A stretch of 64,000 bases of DNA from Isoetes taiwanensis (taxonomy: Eukaryota > Streptophyta > Lycopodiopsida > Isoetales > Isoetaceae): NCBI GenBank assembly GCA_021234155.1, contig JAJEKV010000003.1:19886386-19950385 (forward strand). Direction: 5' to 3'. Below the pieces are notes generated by a model that saw only the letters and a program-made list of their open reading frames with translations, made no database searches and was not told where the DNA came from. Position 1 is the stretch's first letter. Every line of letters starts with the position of its first letter. The translations under genes and the position numbers were made by a program. Below are positions 18,876-25,551 of the stretch, piece after piece.

Positions 18876-18879
18876 AAAT

Positions 18880-18900
18880 GGGTGTAAAATCGCTAGTGGG
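18880..18900 (+). repeat. Left terminal inverted repeat of the DNA transposon
   Basis: It begins gggtgtaaaatcg and pairs with 25527-25547, with 18 of 21 positions identical. Preceding bases 18876-18879 are AAAT. A near-palindrome, agcacttTaagtgct, follows at about 18926-18940. Confidence 0.65.
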
Positions 18901-19024
18901 GTACAACTTTTGGCGAAGCGTTTAAGCACTTTAAGTGCTGAAACTCGCGGACGTCGAAGCCCGTCACGCCCTTCTCCCTCCTTTTCCCCTGGGCGCAAAA
19001 ACTCAGATCAGTATTTCACTGTTG

Positions 19025-19270
19025 ATGATGGAGGCATGGAGCGCGGATGATTTTCACAGCATCAGAGGTCTGTGCAATTCGGGGGTGAAGCCCCATGAGG
19101 AAGAAGCTTGGTTGGAAAATAATGTCACGGATCGAGATTGGGATTCTGTTTGGACAAAGAAGTTGAACAAGGGAAAGATAAAATGGCACTGTGCAAAGGA
19201 GCATCTTCAAGAGAAGTTGGAAACACTCTCTGTAGAAAAATCTACAAGAATTGTCACAACAAAGAAGTAA
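19025..19270 (+). CDS. Hypothetical charged protein or exon at the left of the DNA transposon
   Basis: An 81-residue frame from the ATG at 19025 (MMEAWSADDFHSIRG...) is rich in Trp, Lys and Glu and has no family I recognise. It follows the transposon's left end by about 145 bases, where a first exon would be expected. The next kilobase holds further coding-looking pieces interrupted by stops, so this may be the 5' part of a decayed gene that once ran into the phosphatase exons. It could also be a chance frame. Confidence 0.3.
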   Translation: MMEAWSADDFHSIRGLCNSGVKPHEEEAWLENNVTDRDWDSVWTKKLNKGKIKWHCAKEHLQEKLETLSVEKSTRIVTTKK

Positions 19271-19915
19271 GAAAGCAACCGCCCTTGCTTTTGCGTTTGA
19301 AAATTGCACTAGATCAGTACTTGCACCCGAGGAACACAAAGTAAACCGGGCTGCATTTGTCAGTGCAATGCCAAAGATACCACAACAATAGACAAGTAAA
19401 AACAGAGGCGGATGTTGTAGCACATGTTAGGAAAAATGAAATGAAGGCAAAGCCAAAGGTGGCGGTGGATCAAATGAGATCGAGTGCATGTGATGAAAAC
19501 ATAAAACCTTAGAGAATGCAAGACAGGGAGATTGGAAAATCGGGTTTTACTTATCACAAAGAATCTGGAAGCGAGAGGAAGTGAGCTGAAAGGCAATGAG
19601 AAGGCCTCTGAATTCTGAGAAAATGATGTTGGAAGAGGCTGAGAACAGCTTTAAGACAAAGCCACAAATGATTTGGCTACAAAGCGGGGAGGAGTTCAAG
19701 CTTAATCCAAACCGTGAGTTGGAGGCGTAAATTAAAGATTTGGAGCGGATTGTCGGATGGAAACTTGGCACGTGAACAAGGTACAAAAAGCAATGAACCC
19801 TACATCCGTTAATGAGCGGGTCAAACGTAAACTCAAACTTGAGGAGGAGTTAAAAGTTCTCGAAGAAGAACGAGACTTACGCATTTCTACATAAACAATT
19901 TGTGGGAGTTTGAAA

Positions 19916-20152
19916 ATGGATACTCCTGCAACATTTAGCATCTCTACTATTATACGAGATAAGTTGTTAGTGGAAGATCCATTTTATACATGTTCGGCAT
20001 GTGGTGCGGAATTCACTAAAGCTTACAGTTAGTTAAGTTTAGCAATGAATTGCCAACATGAGTATCATATAGCTTGTTGTTCATTGTTGAGAGGAGGACA
20101 ATGTATTCATGGTTGCCCTAGAAAGGTGCGGAGGGTGTATTTGACGAGCTAG
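19916..20152 (+). pseudogene. RING-like zinc-binding module with an in-frame stop
   Basis: Reading from the ATG at 19916 gives 78 residues containing CSACGAEF, then NCQHEYHIACC, then QCIHGCPRK. This is the C-x2-C ... C-x-H-x2-H-x2-C ... C-x3-C layout of RING/zinc-ribbon folds. A TAG at 20030-20032 interrupts it between the first and second ligand pairs. A further coding-like stretch (about 20190-20380) with more stops follows. RING proteins are usually ubiquitin ligases, but function is not claimed for this broken copy. It could be an exon set of the same gene as the downstream phosphatase. Confidence 0.45.
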
Positions 20153-20408
20153 GTTTTGGCCATGTTGCGGGGTGCTTCAAATAGTACACCAAAAAGGATG
20201 TGTTAATCTGTCACGCAATTGAGGTCTCACCCTTCGGGGTTCAAAGAAGGACAATGGTGCCATTTGAAGATGCACAACACCGCAAAGTCCTATAGGATCT
20301 GATCAATTGTGATTTGAATGCAAATCTGCAGCCAGAACCACCACCACCAGTCAAGAAGCTATCCAAGAAGCTATAGAAGAAGTCGTAAAACACAAAGACT
20401 AGTTGTAA

Positions 20409-21713
20409 ACACAAAGACCGGTTGTAAACACAAAGACCGGTTGTAGAAAAACAACAGACCCGATTGTACACACTGAAGCACCTAAGGAAGTTGAGGGAGT
20501 AATTCCATCGGATGAGGGCAACTTGGGTGAATATTTGCCAAAAGGAAAGGGCAGAAGAACAAAGAGGGGTAAGCTGGAGGATGGCAAAGAAGTTGTTCAG
20601 GCTACAAGAAAGAGAACAAGAAGTAGCTATGCAAAAGATGCAGGAAGCAGTCTCAATCATGAGACCACACCTATCGAAGTGTGTTCTGAAGAAAATGCAG
20701 AATCAGGCCCTCAGGTTTCAGGTGAGCCTGATGTTCAACAAGTGATTGCTGCCCTTAACAATGGGTCAGTGTGGGCATTGCTGGGCAAGCCCAGAAATAA
20801 ACAATGAATATTATTGATTTTCTTTTGTTGCATTCACTGTAGGATTACCAGTTGAATCTGTTAGGTCAGAGAATCCTGCTGTTGATACAGAAAGGTTTCC
20901 ACATTCAACCCATTTTTCATTTTCATCTTCATCTATTTATTCATGTAGTAATTCCTGTTGTGTAGGTATTCAGGATGTTCCAACGTACTAAATATTGATT
21001 TGGCAGCAAAAGATAAACTCATTGTCTTGGATTTAAATGGTGTGTTGGTAAAAACATTTGGTGCAAATGAACACATACGCTTGGAAGCAGGATTGACAAT
21101 GACATACACTAGCAGAAAGAAAGTGATATTCAGACCAGAAGCAGTGTTCTTCTTGAAGACTTTGTTACAGAAGTGTTGTGTTGGTATATGGTCATCAATG
21201 CAACTCTCTAATGTGGAAGATGTGCTGCAAGTACTATGTCCAGATTTGAGGGACGGATTTCAATTTGTATGGGGACAGGAAAAATGTGTGCAGACCAGTT
21301 TTCACCACCCTAACAAACCTGGCTGTCCAGTCATGATGAAGCCACTTGGGAAAATATATGAGTCATACCCAAGATTCAAAGGTAAGACTTTGCTTCTTGA
21401 TGATTCATTATACAAGTCTTACCTTAGCAGTCCCTGGAAATTTCTGCGGGTACCTGCATTCAAGATGGATGTCTATGATGAAGTGCTAACAGTACTCACC
21501 CCAAAGATAGAAGAAATACTGCAGGCCAAGACTGAGGAAAAAATGAAGTTACTGGTGAAGAACACACACAGATACAAGCCTTGGCCTAAGACAGATAGAA
21601 AGGTTATGAAGCTATGCTTGGAAAGACTTTCTGGAAAACAATTGCAGTTCTGCAGGTTTGTGAAGGAGGAATTGGAGAAGGTTTATGGTGATGACGATTG
21701 TCATTCTCCATGA
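20409..21713 (+). CDS. FCP1/NIF-like (HAD) phosphatase, C-terminal exons
   Basis: Three exons join in register: 20409-20721 (5' limit uncertain; the frame is open from 20409), 20843-20894 and 20966-21713. Introns run GT-AG with phases 1 and 2. The first exon is basic (GKGRRTKRG, RKRTRSSYAK), like a nuclear localisation signal. The third carries the NLI-interacting-factor domain: nucleophile motif LIVLDLNGVLV, then FRPEAVFFLKTLL, CCVGIWSSM, FVWGQEKC and KTLLLDDSLYKSY. The second acidic residue of the usual DxDxT/V motif is Asn, a variant I recall from a plant subgroup; it may weaken catalysis. FCP1/SCP relatives dephosphorylate phosphoserine, for example on the RNA polymerase II tail. The frame is undamaged although its surroundings are decayed. 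The start and upstream exons are unknown. Confidence 0.75.
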
Positions 21714-22489
21714 TTATTGGCATGTTTGTCATTTATTTAGGCCAAGGAATCCTACACTTTTCATGTACCATCTTTATCTTAATTTAAGAATGTTTTTGCT
21801 ATATTGTTTATGTAGTTCAATGCAGACTTGTCTATAAGTTTTTGCTATATTGTTTATATCTACTTCAATGCTGACTGCAAGGGATGCTTAAAACTTATCA
21901 AGTGCTTAAAAAAAAAATTGCCTGCAAGTGCTAGTCTGGTATGAGTCCTAATGGCAGAAACTGCTTATTGTCATGCAGTGACAGTTACTTTTATGTAGTT
22001 GCTTAATGCTAGCAGAAGTGTTAATGTCATCATGTGCTTACTGTCATGCAGTTAAGGTGCAGTGCTTATTGTTATGCTATATAACTGTTTAAAATGCTAG
22101 CTGTTTATTGCATAAGTGCTCGTGTGTTCTAGTGCTTACTCACTGGCACTGCTGAAACTGATTAAAATGCTTAGTGTTTGAAACTAATTAAAGAGCTAGA
22201 GCACTGTTACATTCAAGCAGAATCTGAATGGACTGCACAGGAATTCGAACTTGCCAAGAATGTTGGGATAGTGATGGTACTAAAATAAATAATTGAACCT
22301 TATTCCAATGTCACAAATCTACATTCTTATAAACAACAATTCAATCTTCATTTCGAAGTACGTGTCCATGCACACCACCCTTGTGCATCCTCACTATTGT
22401 TAATATATATAAAAATATGTGCTTACGTGCTTAGGTGCTGGAACAACTAATCACTTGAAAAGAATAACATCAATTTAAGTGTCAAAGAA
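21714..22489. other. Spacer between convergent genes with recurrent agtgcttA-type words
   Basis: Between about 21880 and 22200 the words agtgctta, tgcttactgtcatgcag and tgcttattgt recur many times, interspersed with tgctag. The word resembles the subterminal aagtgctta at the transposon ends. No coding frame was seen. It holds the 3' end of the phosphatase gene and probably its polyadenylation signals. Confidence 0.45.
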
Positions 22490-25222
22490 TTACAATGTTA
22501 TTGGGAGACTGGCCATAATTTTTTCATGGGTCTCCTGTGAAATTCTGTACATGTCTGTGCCTTCTATTTTTTCCATATCAATTTTAGGATATCTTACCAC
22601 ATGGCTGTGCACGGAGGCTTCGAATTGTTTAGTGAGCAACATGTACTTGAAATTACCCAAGAATTGATAATACAACCCACTTAAGATAACCTCATGCACT
22701 CCAAATTTTTGCCCCCATCCATCTTTGTATGAATCTTCAAGTGTGCATTTGGGTTACGTGTGTACTTGAGGATGTGAAGTCCACACCCCTCAATTGTCTA
22801 CCTCGCATTCCTTTGCAAAATTGTCACCTACCTCTACCAAATTACTGATCCATTCATTGGCTTGTTCAAGAGTCTCCTTTTTCTTCTCAACTCCACGGTT
22901 TTAAGTCGGTTACCTCCCACTTTCCAAATCTACGTATTGATGCGGGGAGTCCCAATTATGATCCATGCAAAACAAGCGAGAAACATGCGGGCATCTATGA
23001 GCAAGCCTGTTTGGTCTACTCCTGGCGGCAGTGCGATCTGATTGAATCTTCTTTGTGCCTTTGAGTGTTTCAATTTCATATTCTTCCATGTTTGCCACAA
23101 CAAAGCGGGGTTCAATTTCCCAAAAATATCTTTTGATCTCATCTGTTTCATCAACTAGTATCTGGCTGAAATATGTACACGAGAAATTTTACAATATCTT
23201 TAGCATGTCTCGGTTGCACACCATTGGGTTTGAGTTGTTCCTTACTTAGCGACCTTTTGATAACAAAGCACACGCACCATCATGTTCACCTTTACCATGA
23301 GCAGTGGCAAAGTAGTTCCACACTATTTCCTTGTCATTGATTGTGAAGTACACGCCTAAGAAAAAAAGGTTTTCTGACTTGAATTGTGATGAGCGACCAT
23401 CACTCCAAACCCAATGCTTCTCATACTCTATTTCTGTTTCTTAAGCCATGCAACATGCTTTTGTAGGCGGTGTTCCACAAATAATGAGTCATGCACTTTA
23501 TCATCGAAATGTAAAAGTGAGTCTCTTTTATGATCTTCCTACCATTGTTGAGTCTATTCTCGATCGCTCCAACCTTACGTTTTTTTTTTTTCTTCTTTGG
23601 ACAGTCTTCTTCATGTCCGCACAGGAACAGGAATATCAGCACTTTTGTCATGTCTATATGTTATGTGAACAAGTATAGAAACTTGAGTGCGTATGCGGTG
23701 CATTGACCGGGGCTCATTACGGATCTTGATTTGTAATTTTACGCAAAGTCAATAAATGGATACAATTGTATCTTTCGGAAATGATGACACCTGCTTGTTT
23801 TAAACTGATTGGCCTGCCAATGTGCTATGTAATTGTGTGGAACAAAATCTGATATTACCTTCTTCACTTCCTCTTGAAACTCTTTGGGACTTCTCTCATT
23901 CTGTACTAATCTCAAGACAGGTTTGTACCTCAAAGCCTTTCTTGGATCCCTGAATTCTCTGTCCTGGTCCACAGGTTGCTTTTCAAATGTCTTCCAAGTA
24001 ACTAGTACTGAACCCGTGCCATCCATTTCCTGTGGACATTTTCTAATTCTATCAAACCCACATTTTTTACACGCCAACATCAAGCAGTTATGATCAAACC
24101 ACTCCTCATCATCACCTTTCTTTGCCGGACCACTTGTCTCCATAAATCACTGGTGCACTTGATTGTATGCTCCTTGGTGCACATTTTGGGCCGGGCCACA
24201 AATCTCCCGATGGCGGTTGCAATTGTCATGAACTCCACCCGACTTTCTCAGGCTGTTCAATCGCATGATGTATTCAAAATTTCAAGTGGTAGATGCAACA
24301 AACATGTATGCCTCTCACGCATCCTCCTTACAAAACTTCGGTTTCAACCTCTCAAAAGTGCGCAATACAATTTTGATATGAGGATTCTCTCTCTCTAAAC
24401 TGAGAGGTAGAATTGCAAGCTAGGGGAAATCGTGTGAATGCCAAAAAAAATGCTACATATAATGAACCCTACAATATAGGATGAATACTTACTTGGTGAC
24501 TTCAAGAAGGTGAATTGGATGTTCCATCTTTATTCTGTCTCGATACATACCTCCTCCACGTCTTTCTTGTATGGAGAAACTCTTGTATTTTCTCGTCGAA
24601 CTTGATAACATGACTTCTCTATTGTGATCTAACATGCTATCCATCCGCTTCCTCCTCCGAACATTGACCAAGGTCCTTCCCTTTGTTAGCTTGCACCCTT
24701 CTTTGAAAAGCATTTGAAATTGTTTTTTACGGAGTCTTGAGCAATCTGGCCACTTCTGCTTGATTCAATGGCTTGACACCATTTGTACCTGCTGCTGCCA
24801 TTATCAGGGTGGACTTCCTTGCATGAAGCATGTCATGATTCCTCTCAAACTTATGTTCTTGCATTGTTTCCTTCAAATTCTTCACCATTTGCTTTCGGCC
24901 ATAGTAACACGCTTAGATTTCTTTTTATAGAAGCAATTGGTAAATCCCTTGCCCTCCAAAGAAGACTGTCAAGGATACGGCCTTTGTCATTGTCATCAAC
25001 ATTTGTACTAATTTGGTTGAATACTTCATAAATTTCTCCTGAAATTTCTCTTATTCTGCGGTCACTCAGTCTCAATTTCTTATTCTTCTTTGAAGGCGAA
25101 TCTTTAGAAGGGGAATTCTTCTTCATTGCTACTTTCTTTGCATACAATCTCTGCCTCTGATCTCTCTTGCTTGCTGCATCAATGGCTCTGTAAATTGAAT
25201 GGGGAGAGGAATTGGGTTTCAT
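22490..25222 (-). pseudogene. Degenerate DDE-type transposase of an unassigned family
   Basis: Read right to left there is a basic N-terminus (24851-25222: KRDQRQRLYAKKV, KKNKKLRLSDRR), then VNVRRRKRMDSMLDHNREVM (24489-24713), then a Cys-rich middle segment (23739-24143: LACKKCGFDRIRKC, NYIAHWQANQF). Next come the motif DFA-stop-NY at about 23737-23755, WSDGRSSQFKSE at 23374-23408 and HGKGEHDGA at 23274-23299. I remember the set DFxENY / SDGxxxQ(F/Y)K / HGKGxxDG from uncharacterised transposase-like proteins common in invertebrate genomes; D, D and the HGKG..D positions are probable catalytic residues. Stops and frame changes break it many times. The C-terminal part reaches about 22490. The inner part of the transposon contains no second transposase. 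Confidence 0.6.
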
Positions 25223-25526
25223 CTATCCCGGATTTCTGTGTATTGCAAAATTGGTGAGGGCAAATTGTTGAATTTCGGTTCAGGCAATTCTTGGAAACAA
25301 TTAGTCCCTCCATTTTGCTTGAATTCAAGATGGGTTAGCCCGCCATCCAGGAATATGGCGGGCTACAGGCATTCATGTTTCCGGCACCAAACATGTTCAT
25401 GATTCTCTCAGCCTGTCATTTGACGGGCCCGCACCCTACATGTCAATACTTCAATCACGCACGTCGTGTTTAAAACACACCGATTTTAAGCACTTGTAAG
25501 CGGCGTTCGGACGGTGATTTCTGCTA

Positions 25527-25547
25527 CCCAGTACCGATTTTGCACCC
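25527..25547 (-). repeat. Right terminal inverted repeat of the DNA transposon
   Basis: On the plus strand this reads ccagtaccgattttgcaccc followed by AAAT at 25548-25551. The reverse complement matches the left end. An inner motif whose complement reads aagtgcttaaaatcgg resembles aagtgctgaaactcg inside the left end. Confidence 0.65.
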
Positions 25548-25551
25548 AAAT

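Follow-up and report, generated by a model that had tools for sequence, protein, structure and literature searches.

Why should a cut-and-paste DNA transposon carry a protein domain of the FCP1/NIF phosphatase family? The question is raised by positions 18880-25547 of a 64-kb stretch of Isoetes taiwanensis DNA (hereafter the window), where a preliminary description had placed a 6.67-kb element pairing such a phosphatase with a transposase. Our study was limited to this element, and its relatives were sought in the genome assembly (1,658,258,908 bases in 1,110 contigs). The element is one copy of a two-gene cut-and-paste DNA transposon, decayed and with an internal deletion. A transposase gene lies on the minus strand and, converging on it from the plus strand as described earlier, stand open reading frame 1 (ORF1), with a RING-like Cys/His cluster, and the FCP1/NIF domain, here called NIF. 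The explanation that we favour as a whole, and consider probable, is a two-gene transposon whose old, selected NIF serves the element.

The boundaries proposed for the element proved exact to the base, giving a length of 6,668 bases. Its terminal inverted repeats start GGGTG and agree at 18 of 21 positions, and the 4-bp target-site duplication AAAT is present on both sides. Searches with 201 bases from each end found many further copies, listed at 98-100% identity throughout (best 40 of 495 candidates scored for the left end, best 40 of 549 for the right), and a single-copy artefact was thereby rejected. Six more two-ended copies were fetched, chosen since both of their ends were present in the left- and right-end lists. 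All six end in the same termini as the window copy; five have a perfect 4-bp duplication (TACA, AGAT, TTAT, AATT, TGTC) and the sixth has TTTT/TTCT, which makes six perfect duplications in seven copies with the window included. These copies measure 7,679, 7,499, 6,762, 7,762, 7,607 and 5,164 bases. Four of the six are thus 7.5-7.8 kb long and the rest 6.8 and 5.2 kb; the 6.67 kb given at first is the correct span of a copy that has lost internal DNA. A query in which the window flanks were joined through one AAAT returned 41 rows: two come from the flanks of the window copy itself, 12 stop short of the junction, and 27 run through it with no difference in length between query and target. Each of the three rows read among these 27 is ungapped and has one AAAT. 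These empty sites fit the ends of the element. They are paralogous members of a dispersed repeat that it hit, and not alleles.

In the window copy both the transposase gene and ORF1 are broken by frameshifts and stops, and the NIF frame is open. The assembly was built from nanopore reads and polished with Illumina reads, as stated in the genome report (PMC8566536), and some frameshifts in near-identical young copies may therefore be assembly errors. The transposase retains WSDGRSSQFKSE and HGKGEHDG, as had been claimed, whereas the claimed DFA-NY motif is split by a frameshift between IDFA and NY. Comparison of the transposase with profile hidden Markov models, an earlier suggestion, placed it in no known family, since nothing in Pfam exceeded a cut-off; the three acidic motifs DFAENY, WSDG and HGKGEHDG are nevertheless common to five lineages of related elements (A-E, introduced below) where covered and in frame. 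Such motifs would suit a DDE/D transposase of RNase H fold. The transposase had no match in the PDB, and one lineage-A protein had none among viral contigs. The pieces read comprise 627 open amino acids in one locus (L011), 611 in a second (L012) and 250 plus 515 in a third (L013).

NIF of the window matches PF03031 (E 2.6e-13, 50.4 bits against a cut-off of 21.8), and three further NIFs score 74.4, 74.8 and 72.3 bits. Among solved sequences the window NIF matches UBLCP1 alone (3shq; E 9.3e-6), and for a lineage-C copy (L022) this match has E 0.001. The family name given to the gene at the outset stands, and the label of a phosphatase activity is not supported: motif I reads D-x-N-G in all 37 transposon NIFs examined (2 from lineage A, 22 from B, 13 from C), none has the catalytic D-x-D-x-T/V motif, and an ordinary FCP1/SCP phosphatase was rejected on this ground. 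The nucleophile Asp, motif II, Lys and the Asp-Asp pair are retained in the NIF rows aligned. In FCP1/SCP-type enzymes the Asp at position +2 serves as general acid/base, and replacing it by Asn usually halts hydrolysis while binding can persist. With Asn at this position in 37 of 37 copies, a phosphoprotein-binding module is our preferred reading; judged by these residues, the transposon NIF may bind phosphoproteins rather than hydrolyse them. An AlphaFold prediction of the window NIF alone was poor (mean predicted local distance difference test 42, predicted template modelling score 0.32) and was not used.

The window family is here called lineage A, and NIF is present also in lineages B and C, with only about 30-34% identity between the NIFs of the three lineages over the longest matches. 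A PF03031 profile search of the genome gave 151 matches (best 150 of 3,263 candidates scored), from which seven loci were fetched. One locus of lineage C (L023) and two of lineage B (L025, L028) hold ORF1, NIF and a convergent transposase; in L022 NIF and transposase are present and an ORF1 match is absent. Locus L024 is a host phosphatase, which we take to be of CPL type. It shares PF03031 with the element NIFs and differs from them in its motif, DLDHTL, with neither an ORF1 nor a transposase match in the 7.5 kb read. The remaining two loci (L026, L027) are a different dispersed kind that carries a NIF. The NIF places were then compared with transposase places within 6 kb, using 200 random shifts of the transposase places as a control. 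In lineage A, 42 of the best 150 NIF places have a transposase within this distance, 40 of them convergent (shifted mean 0.23); the corresponding numbers are 11 of the best 150, all 11 convergent, for lineage B (shifted mean 0.235) and 60 of 137 listed places, 58 convergent, for lineage C (shifted mean 0.135). The B test drew on a mixed PF03031 list in which host genes, C elements and the second kind also appear, and its low fraction is what one would expect from such a list. Convergent linkage of NIF and transposase is far above chance in all three lineages, and the pairing seen in the window thus recurs in other copies. With many copies and with empty sites that fit the ends, none of the outcomes that the preliminary description named as refuting it was observed.

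Terminal inverted repeats were also sought in 13 loci. They are clear in the lineage-B locus L028 (24 of 25 positions, duplication TATA, 6,889 bp) and in L018 of lineage E (19 of 25, AACT); a convincing pair is absent from the other 11 loci tried, several of which are cut or rearranged.

Selection on NIF was assessed from the ratio of nonsynonymous to synonymous divergence (dN/dS) in 31 more copies (20 of B, 11 of C) fetched from PF03031 places, together with L022, L025 and L028; L038 and L041, with motif I DLNGA and DLNGM, were excluded by a motif filter. Between subfamilies at dS 0.68-0.98, median dN/dS was 0.18 for B1-B2, 0.29 for B1-B3, 0.285 for B2-B3, 0.195 for B4-B5 and 0.15 for C1-C2. 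The remaining between-group pairs have dS of at least 1.6 or no estimate, with dN/dS 0.15-0.33 where computable. For the pair L025 and L028 the RING-like part gave 0.135 and the transposase 0.067, rough values at dS 1.3-2.2. NIF is under purifying selection between subfamilies of B and between those of C. A recent one-off capture was rejected on the convergent linkage in three lineages and these ratios of 0.15-0.29; NIF is old in the transposon lineage.

Relatives without NIF were also found. In L013 a divergent relative, F, whose ORF1 is homologous, interrupts an A element. This NIF-less F element (L013 3730-9001 with L015 1-1900), itself apparently internally deleted, lies nested inside the A element. 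A search with its ORF1 gave 152 matches (best 150 of 1,998 candidates scored), some as low as 34% in identity, and 11 loci of type D/E were fetched (L016-L021, L066-L070). All 11 hold ORF1 by selection; eight also hold a transposase (L016, L018, L019, L020 and L066-L069, with L067 rearranged) and three hold ORF1 only. The D/E-type loci keep the coiled-coil/RING-like protein: the RING part of lineage A has matches in L016-L021, and D/E-type ORF1 has matches in L023, L025 and L028. With six NIF queries, 10 of the 11 loci gave nothing better than E 0.046. The other, L069, has a NIF of the second kind (97% identical to that of L027) at the far locus edge, with the nearest transposase piece 2.8 kb away. 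Just past this NIF, on the same strand, the upstream reading frame of L027 finds a match (C1071:7265440-7266258), and we therefore read the NIF as part of a neighbouring element. No NIF inside an element, degenerate ones included, was found by these queries in the 11 loci. In a transposase tree built from pieces anchored to the A protein, D, E and F form one group (support 1.000) that is separate from A, B and C, and on this unrooted tree NIF was gained or lost once. Together these relatives form a superfamily that is large and diverse in Isoetes taiwanensis.

The preliminary description had left it open whether the phosphatase and RING-like module were captured from the host or are used by the element. 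The age of NIF in the lineage and the selection on it clearly favour use, and NIF very probably has a function in the element. The RING-like protein also occurs at the NIF-less loci and is therefore older or more widespread than NIF. Transposons do carry pieces of host genes, and the open NIF frame beside a broken transposase in the window would suit a recent transduplication, in which the window family took a host NIF gene by accident and multiplied with it as a passenger. The same layout in lineages whose NIFs are so divergent, the linkage in A, B and C and the low dN/dS between subfamilies of B and of C all contradict it, and we regard such an origin as very improbable. Further back, a host NIF gene would have been the source, acquired once before A, B and C split, and a single loss elsewhere would fit too. 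That NIF was instead ancestral to the element and was lost once in D/E/F is a course to which we give appreciable weight while stopping short of calling it probable: on the unrooted tree these lineages form one group and a single loss costs the same as a single gain, yet degenerate NIF was found by the six queries in none of the 11 D/E-type loci, a result tempered by the fact that full deletion would leave no trace.

Several observations weigh against an old and selected NIF that serves the element. NIF is not essential to the superfamily, since D/E loci exist without it, and the tree, fragment-based and unrooted, accommodates a loss of NIF in D/E/F as readily as a gain. The linkage lists are the best 136-150 of thousands of candidates; missing partners are therefore expected, and the fractions are silent on the share of NIF-less elements. 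The copies used for dN/dS came from places free of stop codons, a choice that favours conserved copies, and saturation of dS between lineages confines the demonstration of selection to comparisons within B and within C. Within subfamilies NIF dN/dS is 0.23-0.73, which matches decay after insertion and offers no support by itself; it is 0.60 at dS 0.09 between L022 and L023, a pair outside the groups, and 0.90 between two A copies, and one transposase stretch gives 0.77 between L022 and L023. An intact A-lineage transposase was not found, the longest open stretch among those listed being 627 amino acids. Finally, NIF would be spliced onto ORF1 as a single protein across two possible introns that join the frames, a fusion read from ordinary splice signals; one-intron and other two-intron joins would also keep the frame open.

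What NIF would do for the element is less certain than that it is used. Retention of the nucleophile and the other active-site residues, with purifying selection, would be consistent with an active phosphatase whose acid/base residue is altered and whose target is the transposase, a partner or a host silencing factor. The replacement of the +2 Asp by Asn in every copy examined, set against DLDHTL in the host protein L024 of the same genome, makes such activity unlikely. A role in protein turnover, in which a UBLCP1-like, proteasome-linked accessory protein shields the transposase or removes a host repressor, seems to us less likely still. It takes its appeal from UBLCP1 as the sole structural match and from the RING-like cluster in ORF1, and it is weakened by the poor UBLCP1 match of lineage C, by the finding of no ubiquitin-like domain by Pfam in the pieces scanned and by RING scores below the Pfam cut-offs. 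The cluster of lineage A (L011) reaches 12.6 of 27.4 bits for zf-RING_16, and the best score, from the nested relative in L013, is 17.7 of 27.3 bits for zf-RING_2; in lineage C the cluster was not confirmed. We prefer the view that NIF helps the element as a phosphoprotein-binding, probably non-hydrolysing module. The RNA polymerase II tail and the proteasome are partners of known FCP1/SCP/UBLCP1 proteins, and the most plausible role would be to dock the transposition complex on a phosphorylated host protein of this kind, a step that we put forward tentatively. A wider proposal is more doubtful: that a D-x-N-G pseudo-phosphatase of the FCP1/NIF family serves a plant DNA transposon superfamily as a permanent subunit for contact with the host, that the apparently unrelated family of L026 and L027 has recruited a domain of the same kind, and that the domain binds phosphorylated RNA polymerase II or the proteasome and steers transposition or escape from silencing.

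Known systems resemble this element in part. Sola2 DNA transposons, including Sola2-Fanzor chimeras, are described in passages of PMC3627910 as making 4-bp target duplications and having inverted ends of 12-13 and 21 bp, a large transposase (888 amino acids in one case) and Fanzor1 beside the transposase. The present element is alike in its 4-bp duplications, short inverted ends, large transposase and extra protein beside it, and differs in that the extra protein is NIF/RING-like, not Fanzor1. The eight duplications found here (AAAT, TACA, AGAT, TTAT, AATT, TGTC, TATA, AACT) are A or T at 27 of 32 letters, whereas only two of the eight fit the AWWT form given for Sola2 (PMC3627910). Sola1 of Physcomitrella is listed in a plant review (PMC9033089). 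The resemblance to Sola2 is one of layout, duplications and short inverted ends, and the element is not filed as Sola. The composite-like KolobokP transposons likewise add a second enzyme domain to a DDD/E transposase lineage; in them this domain is a His-Me finger homing endonuclease and they are reported from seven animal phyla (PMC9587614), whereas here it is NIF. Relative to the phosphatases SCP1 and UBLCP1, the element NIF is alike in its PF03031 match, with UBLCP1 as the nearest solved sequence, and unlike in having D-x-N-G for D-x-D-x-T/V and in lying inside a transposon beside a coiled-coil/RING-like protein.

The novelty lies in the accessory domain, unusual and maintained by selection, of an element whose cut-and-paste layout is otherwise ordinary. 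Searches of the open-access PMC literature turned up no report that links NIF or a C-terminal-domain (CTD) phosphatase to a transposon. The main texts of two Isoetes genome papers (PMC8566536, PMC10541799), searched by term, mention neither Sola nor DNA transposons; that of PMC8566536 has no FCP1 or CTD phosphatase, and in that of PMC10541799 the phosphatases mentioned are PP2C and EGR2 only. If the account given here is correct, a cut-and-paste transposon would have gained an unusual accessory function from a phosphatase-like domain kept by selection, and the phosphoprotein partner of this domain would offer a concrete molecular handle on the crosstalk of a eukaryotic DNA transposon with host transcription or protein turnover. 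Transposon genes may also inflate the counts of FCP1/NIF-like genes in lycophyte genomes, given that plant proteins were used to filter the repeat library of the Isoetes taiwanensis genome (PMC8566536).

Table 1. Features of the transposon copy, in window coordinates (., no strand)
Feature	Position	Strand	Remarks or evidence
Target-site duplication AAAT, left copy	18876-18879	.	Only one AAAT at each of three paralogous empty sites
Left terminal inverted repeat, GGGTGTAAAATCGCTAGTGGG	18880-18900	+	18/21 identical to right end; terminus shared by six other two-ended copies
ORF1, broken here	19025-20721	+	First ATG taken at 19025; conserved N-terminal domain, coiled-coil-like middle
RING-like Cys/His cluster of ORF1	19991-20116	+	CSACG...CQHEYHIAC...CIHGC; in-frame stop at 20030-20032
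Two possible introns joining ORF1 in frame to NIF	20722-20965	+	20722-20842 and 20895-20965; splice-site and frame check
NIF exon, FCP1-type haloacid dehalogenase (HAD) domain, open frame	20966-21713	+	PF03031; motif I DLNGVL
Deletion junction between the two genes, about 1.1 kb lost	22251-22252	.	Site of an acidic frame in longer copies (transposase strand)
Transposase gene, several exons	22493-25222	-	Frameshifts and stops
Third motif, HGKGEHDG	23276-23299	-	
Second acidic motif, WSDG	23396-23407	-	
First acidic motif, IDFA(ENY)	23742-23753	-	Frameshift directly after
Right terminal inverted repeat, GGGTGCAAAATCGGTACTGGG (minus-strand reading)	25527-25547	-	
Target-site duplication AAAT, right copy	25548-25551	.	

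Longer A copies (L005, L012, L013 with L015) have an extra acidic Ser/Glu-rich frame of up to 235 amino acids between NIF and transposase, on the transposase strand and missing from the window copy, which may be a third gene. In L011 (705-2342 and 3858-4865) the left part of an A element has been swapped for other DNA with a frame that we take to be PIF1-helicase-like, possibly a Helitron or a recombination product. A second ORF1 in L018 (3-989, minus strand) is broken off near the left end of the L018 element (976), as if this element had jumped into a relative. In L067 the transposase core and N-terminal part lie on opposite strands, by internal inversion or by overlap of two elements.

The second, apparently unrelated dispersed kind (L026, L031, L027, L029) carries a D-x-N-G NIF downstream of large open reading frames, and both of its NIFs in the active-site alignment read D-x-N-G. 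The large frames have no Pfam match over a cut-off, and a transposase was not recognised in the stretches read. One stretch has an IDGQHS/IAGQHS motif, presumably ParB-like, and one is presumably methylase-like. The upstream frame of L027 has 135 matches (best 134 of 5,579 candidates scored), which marks this kind as high-copy, and five of these places lie just upstream of listed PF03031 NIF places on the same strand. Twelve strong PF03031 matches (142-172 bits) are clustered at 22.9-26.8 Mb of one contig (C1018), possibly a host expansion of SCP-like phosphatases.

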